Shown piece by piece: positions 54,905 to 55,854 of a stretch of 64,000 nucleotides of DNA. The translations under genes and the position numbers were made by a program. The notes below the pieces were generated by a model. It was given only the letters and a program-made list of their open reading frames with translations, had not been told where the DNA came from and searched no databases. The stretch is from Methylobacterium sp. R2-1 (GTDB lineage: Bacteria; Pseudomonadota; Alphaproteobacteria; Rhizobiales; Beijerinckiaceae): the NCBI RefSeq assembly GCF_014191355.1, contig NZ_JACHWM010000001.1, positions 310,001 through 374,000 of the forward strand, written 5' to 3'. Each line of letters begins with the position of its first letter. The first letter of the stretch is position 1.

Positions 54905-55730
54905 ATGGCAATGCTGAGTTTCGAGCGCAAATATCGGGTCCGCGGCGGCACCCTGCTGGGCGGAGACCTGTTCGACTTCTGGGTCGGTCCGTTCTACGTC
55001 GGCTTCTTCGGCGTCACGACGATCTTCTTCTCGGTGCTCGGCACCGCGCTGATCCTCTACGGAGCGGCGATCGGCCCGACCTGGAACATCTGGCAGATCA
55101 ACATCGCGCCCCCCGACTTGAAATACGGGCTGGCGCTGGCACCCCTGAAGGAAGGGGGCCTGTGGCAGATCATCACCTTCTGCGCGATCGGGGCATTCGT
55201 CTCCTGGGCGCTGCGCGAGGTCGAAATCTGCCGTAAGCTCGGCATCGGCTACCATGTGCCGTTCGCCTTCTCGGTGGCGATCTTCGCCTACGTTTCGCTC
55301 GTGGGTGATCCGCCCCTTCCTGATGGGCGCATGGGGCTACGGTTTTCCCTACGGCATCCTCAGCCACCTCGATTGGGTGTCGAACACCGGCTACCAGTAC
55401 CTGCATTTCCACTACAATCCCGCGCACATGCTCGCCGTGAGCTTCTTCTTCACGACGACCTTCGCGCTGGCGCTCCACGGCTCGCTGATCCTGTCCTCGA
55501 CCAACCCCGCCAAGGGCGAGACGGTGAAGACGCCCGAGCACGAGGACACCTATTTCCGCGACACGATCGGCTACTCGATCGGAACACTCGGCATTCACCG
55601 GCTCGGCCTGTTCCTGGCGCTGTCCGCGGGGTTCTGGAGCGCGGTCTGCATCGTCATCTCGGGCCCCTTCTGGACGCAAGGCTGGCCGGAATGGTGGGGC
55701 TGGTGGCTCAACCTGCCCGTGTGGCGGTGA
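54905..55730 (+). pseudogene. pufL: Reaction-centre L subunit PufL, broken by a one-base insertion
   Basis: PufL binds the special pair and quinone in the reaction-centre core. Bases 54905-55303 encode a normal N-terminal half (SFERKYRVRGGTLLGGDLFD, then FAFSVAIFAYVSLV). The normal sequence then resumes one frame over from 55305 (VIRPFLMGAWGYGFPYG, HLDWVSNTGYQYLHFHYNPA, SGPFWTQGWPEWWGWW) to a stop at 55728-55730. The run GTGGGTG at 55301-55307 should be GTGGTG, so one G is extra near residue 133. As read, translation runs out of frame to 55768 and loses all histidine ligands. Joined, the protein is about 274 residues, the usual length. Real mutation and sequencing error cannot be separated here. 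Confidence 0.9.
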
Positions 55731-55854
55731 ACCGGATCGCCGTCCGGCATCCGCGCCGGCCGGCCTAGGGCGCAGGTCCGATCTTCGGGCGCGGGGACCT
55801 CCGCCGACGGCGTGAGCCTCCCTGAGCGACCGCAGGTCCATGGAGGGAGACGCC

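Follow-up and report, generated by a model that had tools for sequence, protein, structure and literature searches.

A one-base insertion splits the only pufL of a Methylobacterium genome, probably as a very recent mutation

Does Methylobacterium sp. R2-1 carry a pufL gene broken by a single base, and if so, does the break belong to the organism or to its assembly? We analysed a window of 64,000 bases (positions 310,001-374,000 of contig C1, which is 522,588 bp long and part of a 5.83 Mb genome in 52 contigs; positions below are those of the window unless a contig is named). A sequence-only reading of this window had proposed that one surplus base breaks pufL inside an otherwise open photosynthesis operon, and had named a very recent loss, a phase-variable state and an assembly error as possible origins.

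One PufL in two reading frames

The open reading frame (ORF) starting at 54905 encodes 287 amino acids, which are those of PufL up to Val133 and unrelated thereafter, and it ends at a stop codon at 55766-55768 (Table 1). The C-terminal half of PufL (VIRPFLMGAW...LPVWR) continues one frame over; this frame is open from 55305 up to its own stop codon at 55729-55731. Any one of the three Gs at 55303-55305 could be the extra base. When compared with TIGR01157 (the NCBIfam pufL profile, 239 positions), the frame from 54905 scored 169.1 bits over positions 1-108, below the cut-off of 266.2, and the second piece scored 271.5 bits over positions 99-239; no continuous frame covered all 239 positions, and two frames are needed to obtain PufL. 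Solved reaction-centre L chains were the best structure-sequence matches of the N-terminal part, and the C-terminal part also matched L chains of solved structures. An indel absent from relatives (see below) distributes homology over the full length of PufL across two frames, which is the pattern of a frameshift pseudogene. Translation and TIGR01157 thus bear out the earlier claims that the frame is PufL to Val133 and then wrong and that PufL resumes one frame over, and the claim of one G too many in GTGGGTG agrees with relatives that have one base fewer. The break lies mid-contig, away from the edges of C1. No second pufL, pufM or puhA was found in this assembly, whose three PF00124 matches are the two pufL pieces and pufM.

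Table 1. Photosynthesis genes and pufL features in the window
Feature	Position	Strand	Support
bchC, intact	49041..49979	+	TIGR01202, 429.8 bits
bchX, intact	49976..50980	+	TIGR02016, 415.6 bits
bchY, intact	50984..52510	+	TIGR02015, 723.5 bits
bchZ, intact	52513..53976	+	TIGR02014, 820.2 bits
pufB, intact	54396..54626	+	NF040862, 83.3 bits
pufA, intact	54638..54826	+	NF040861, 81.7 bits
pufL, N-terminal part (codons 1-133 in frame)	54905..55303	+	TIGR01157 profile 1-108; solved-structure matches
ORF open as sequenced (133 PufL residues and 154 out-of-frame residues)	54905..55768	+	translation
GTGGGTG, one-base insertion site (one G of GGG 55303-55305)	55301..55307	+	alignment gap in relatives
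pufL, C-terminal part with own stop, one frame over	55305..55731	+	TIGR01157 profile 99-239
pufM, intact	55855..56844	+	TIGR01115, profile 1-305 of 305
pufC, intact	56841..57941	+	NF040706, 478.9 bits

Family profiles were matched nearly end to end by bchC, bchX, bchY, bchZ, pufB, pufA, pufM and pufC, all of which except bchC had already been read as open from the sequence. The start of pufM is likely the GTG at 55855 behind GGAGG, with an in-frame ATG also at 55840. Of two ORFs upstream of bchC, both below family cut-offs, one has a methyltransferase as its best match and the other a prenyl diphosphate synthase. Contig C4 carries a second cluster, with bchP, bchG, ppsR, bchN, bchB, puhA, puhC, puhE and a gene for 5-aminolevulinate synthase, all with near-whole profile matches, and a 1242-residue ORF (1238 residues in a relative) which is a putative bchH by its place and size. 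When each cluster was aligned with that of one relative, the pufL insertion was the only single frame-changing gap judged to lie inside a photosynthesis gene, other out-of-frame gaps being judged compensated or intergenic from their position and neighbours; for bchL, bchM, bchF and the carotenoid genes, coverage was at most that of these cluster alignments, without individual naming. A 13-base gap near puhA (C4 244,053) was rejected as damage: it is the relative (G075) that carries an extra near-copy, duplicating on its contig C1 13 bases of the puhA end with the stop codon, which the source lacks, and PuhA ends normally, at 257 residues, in both genomes. By family profiles and alignments we accepted no decay of any other photosynthesis gene in the two clusters, and thus nothing independent signals that phototrophy has been abandoned.

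The insertion site across the genus

We aligned 143 locus rows to this pufL, of which 4 were its own copy without a gap and 139 were non-own (rows are loci, hence some genomes were counted twice). Of the 139, 136 lack one base of this pufL, the gap falling at query bases 396-404; in the other three (L022, L039 and L096) the aligner had spread gaps round the site, with the net change modulo 3 unchanged. Counted by genome, pufL is present in 107 of 111 same-genus genomes. The sequence-only reading had proposed this comparison as a check: among the 106 others that have pufL, 105 are shorter by one base modulo 3 and so in frame without the extra base, none has the same insertion, and the one exception (G005) is two bases shorter modulo 3 owing to an additional, different one-base deletion. 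PF00124 matches number two in 101 genomes, four in 4, and three, the number that a split pufL gives, only in the source and G005. Among cluster representatives we recognised no intact pufL of the same species, the nearest being 95% identical (90% clusters may hide same-species copies).

Two further observations concern the distribution of pufL. Four genomes with four PF00124 matches each have a second pufL, with 77-79% DNA identity to the source gene, on a contig other than that of the main copy (G026:C58, G034:C14, G062:C73 and G068:C3), perhaps as part of a horizontally acquired second puf operon. PF00124 has no match in 4 of the 111 genomes, namely G078, which is only 70% complete, and G016, G018 and G030, which are rated 100% complete and may have lost the reaction centre or never had one.

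Age of the lesion and quality of the assembly

Relative to the loci of ten relatives (nine distinct genomes at most, with two loci identical in pufL), we found no amino-acid change unique to the source in 274 PufL codons; one Ser codon carries two base differences that leave Ser unchanged. Against Methylorubrum aminovorans, Ks was 0.20 in the N-terminal and 0.23 in the C-terminal half, and Ka was 0.011 and 0.006, respectively, the latter value arising from that Ser codon. Without selection, the source branch should have accumulated about 67 nonsynonymous changes (about 621 nonsynonymous sites times half of a Ks of 0.217), and 0 were seen. The unconstrained part of the branch after its separation from M. 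aminovorans is accordingly at most about 4.5%, a rough figure that assumes an even branch split and is restricted to sites at which the compared relatives agree. Both halves look selected, with the signature of purifying selection, and neither has a source-unique amino-acid change that would suggest relaxed selection after the break; the lesion is therefore either very young or not in the organism. Conserved halves fit a very recent loss and an assembly error alike.

An assembly or sequencing error would leave pufL intact and the strain an ordinary aerobic anoxygenic phototroph, and we regard it as a serious rival with the odds somewhat against it. Conservation of both halves is exactly what an error would show, the remaining checked photosynthesis genes are intact, an extra base in GGG is also a change that sequencing makes, and the genus has just one other split pufL, which comes down to a run-length difference. 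Public PufL proteins point the same way: a wrong-frame stretch occurs in 54 of the 120 listed among 3173 matches, and 50 of these 54 are single-sequence clusters, although our chimeric query favours frame-broken matches and so biases the ranking. Against an error, the G run has just three bases, the site is mid-contig, and no further interior one-base break was accepted in 594 genes (one row on contig C2 being ambiguous), and thus the error rate of the assembly is low.

This last figure comes from a comparison of relatives' ORFs with 1.2 of the 5.83 Mb of the source, in which 594 of 767 genes passed our rules (225,515 codons). Fixed rules (not coding in two frames, no mid-gene stop) removed a further 47 flagged genes; those inspected were mostly start over-extensions. 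Twelve rows were listed, and their acceptance was a judgement rather than a blind test. We accepted three rows. Two of them, each from a different relative, are pufL; among the 594 comparable genes no other interior one-base frame break was accepted. The third is a response-regulator-like gene (G000:C4 near 105,952; L193) with a 5-base insertion (TTCGG) relative to G075, which looks like a tandem duplication. As to the other rows, two were one pair of tandem paralogues, rejected as frame breaks; four (C2 168,146; C2 90,366; C4 200,977; C1 363,931) were rejected for a base composition indicating the wrong frame or strand (in three or four of these ORFs); and one (C4 121,322) was rejected for a stop near the C-terminal end, outside the aligned block. 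The last two are a short, weakly conserved ORF with mixed gaps (C2 near 93,365) and an in-frame stop one third into a 234-codon ORF at 78% identity (C2 144,620). An apparent interruption of a gene on C4, which from its sequence we take to be FtsH, was also rejected, the stop falling in an over-long ORF start. In the reverse comparison (source ORFs against relatives), 540 of 866 ORFs were tested and gave six rows, two of them one tandem-paralogue pair.

Other one-base breaks therefore number 0 to 1 in about 590 genes, and the assembly looks clean apart from pufL. By this indirect evidence, a genuine mutation of very recent date is likelier than an error. The sequence-only reading was thus right to set these two origins side by side, both being fitted by the conserved halves, and the clean assembly makes error the less likely. 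Specifically, we hold with a probability of about 0.6 that the extra G after codon 133 of the sole pufL in the assembly is a very recent mutation which would leave the strain with no functional L subunit. Confidence stops there because errors are rare but true broken genes are rare too, and of the same order.

Two other explanations would keep the extra base, and neither has a supporting feature at this locus. Ribosomal frameshifting could restore the frame so that PufL is made, and both halves are indeed conserved as though translated; it is nevertheless highly improbable, given that the insertion is confined to the source among genomes of the genus with pufL, and thus no conserved recoding site exists, that frame 0 runs on for 154 more codons with no stop close to the site, and that, to our knowledge, CTC GTG GGT GAT holds no recognisable slip site. 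Switching of the reaction centre by phase variation, which the sequence-only reading had allowed, is the least credible of all, since a single-base change within a G run is matched neither by a hypermutable tract (the run is GGG, and the contingency tracts that we know of are far longer) nor by alternative states in relatives (0 of 106).

Predicted consequences and comparison with known cases

If the preferred reading of a very recent mutation is correct, the translated product would follow PufL for its first 133 residues and be unrelated to it over the remaining 154, and the C-terminal half of PufL would be lost together with its seven histidines; of these, we take His 154, 174, 191 and 231 to be the bacteriochlorophyll and iron ligands L153, L173, L190 and L230. 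A functional reaction centre and light-driven electron transport are predicted to be absent, while the antenna (pufBA) and bacteriochlorophyll genes remain open and antenna and pigment would still be made. Translation of pufM need not suffer because the out-of-frame ORF stops at 55768, before either pufM start. These bacteria live on organic carbon and oxygen, and loss of the reaction centre would therefore be tolerated, for example in laboratory culture. We infer both the presence of the base in the organism itself and this phenotype from the sequence. More tentatively, and with a probability that we consider low, this may be a natural strain caught at the first step in losing aerobic phototrophy: its reaction centre newly gone through one base, antenna and bacteriochlorophyll still being made, and no other gene yet decayed.

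Were the base real, the strain, whose close relatives are intact, could serve as a ready-made reaction-centre mutant for studying the contribution of the reaction centre to fitness and the first step in the loss of phototrophy. Were it an error, the case would be a warning about gene surveys and automated annotation, in which this genome would count as being without PufL. The mechanism is ordinary whether mutation or error.

The closest genome, that of Methylorubrum aminovorans NBRC 15686 (L034; G003:C1), shares the same operon, with pufL DNA 94.7% identical over 826 bases and a PufL C-terminal half identical in amino acids; unlike the source, it has one base fewer at the site and a single open frame of 274 residues. 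Given this pufL identity and 86.3-93.3% identity in aligned blocks longer than 3 kb over the first 400 kb of C1, the two are probably different species.

In G005, a 5-contig assembly of another species, PufL is likewise split by a one-base indel, and pufM likewise matches in full. Its pufL (L024, 476-1299) is split by an independent deletion elsewhere, at query base 628, where it has CCCC and two compared relatives have CCCCC; this run-length difference looks error-like.

In the mainly open-access literature, as far as its available text extends, we found no report of a pufL frameshift in this genus (including PMC5165242, PMC11767975 and PMC12661815); one of these studies describes frame-shifted amplicons as thrown out at quality control (PMC5165242). 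Public genome and metagenome collections also contain frame-broken PufL proteins. Like that of the source, they start as PufL and continue in the same wrong frame, but they are not close relatives of this gene, their break points vary and they are mostly single sequences. We accordingly rejected a frameshift hotspot at this site, on account of the varying break points and the bias of the chimeric query. Set beside these cases, the pufL of this strain is an ordinary young pseudogene or an error, neither of which is new in kind.
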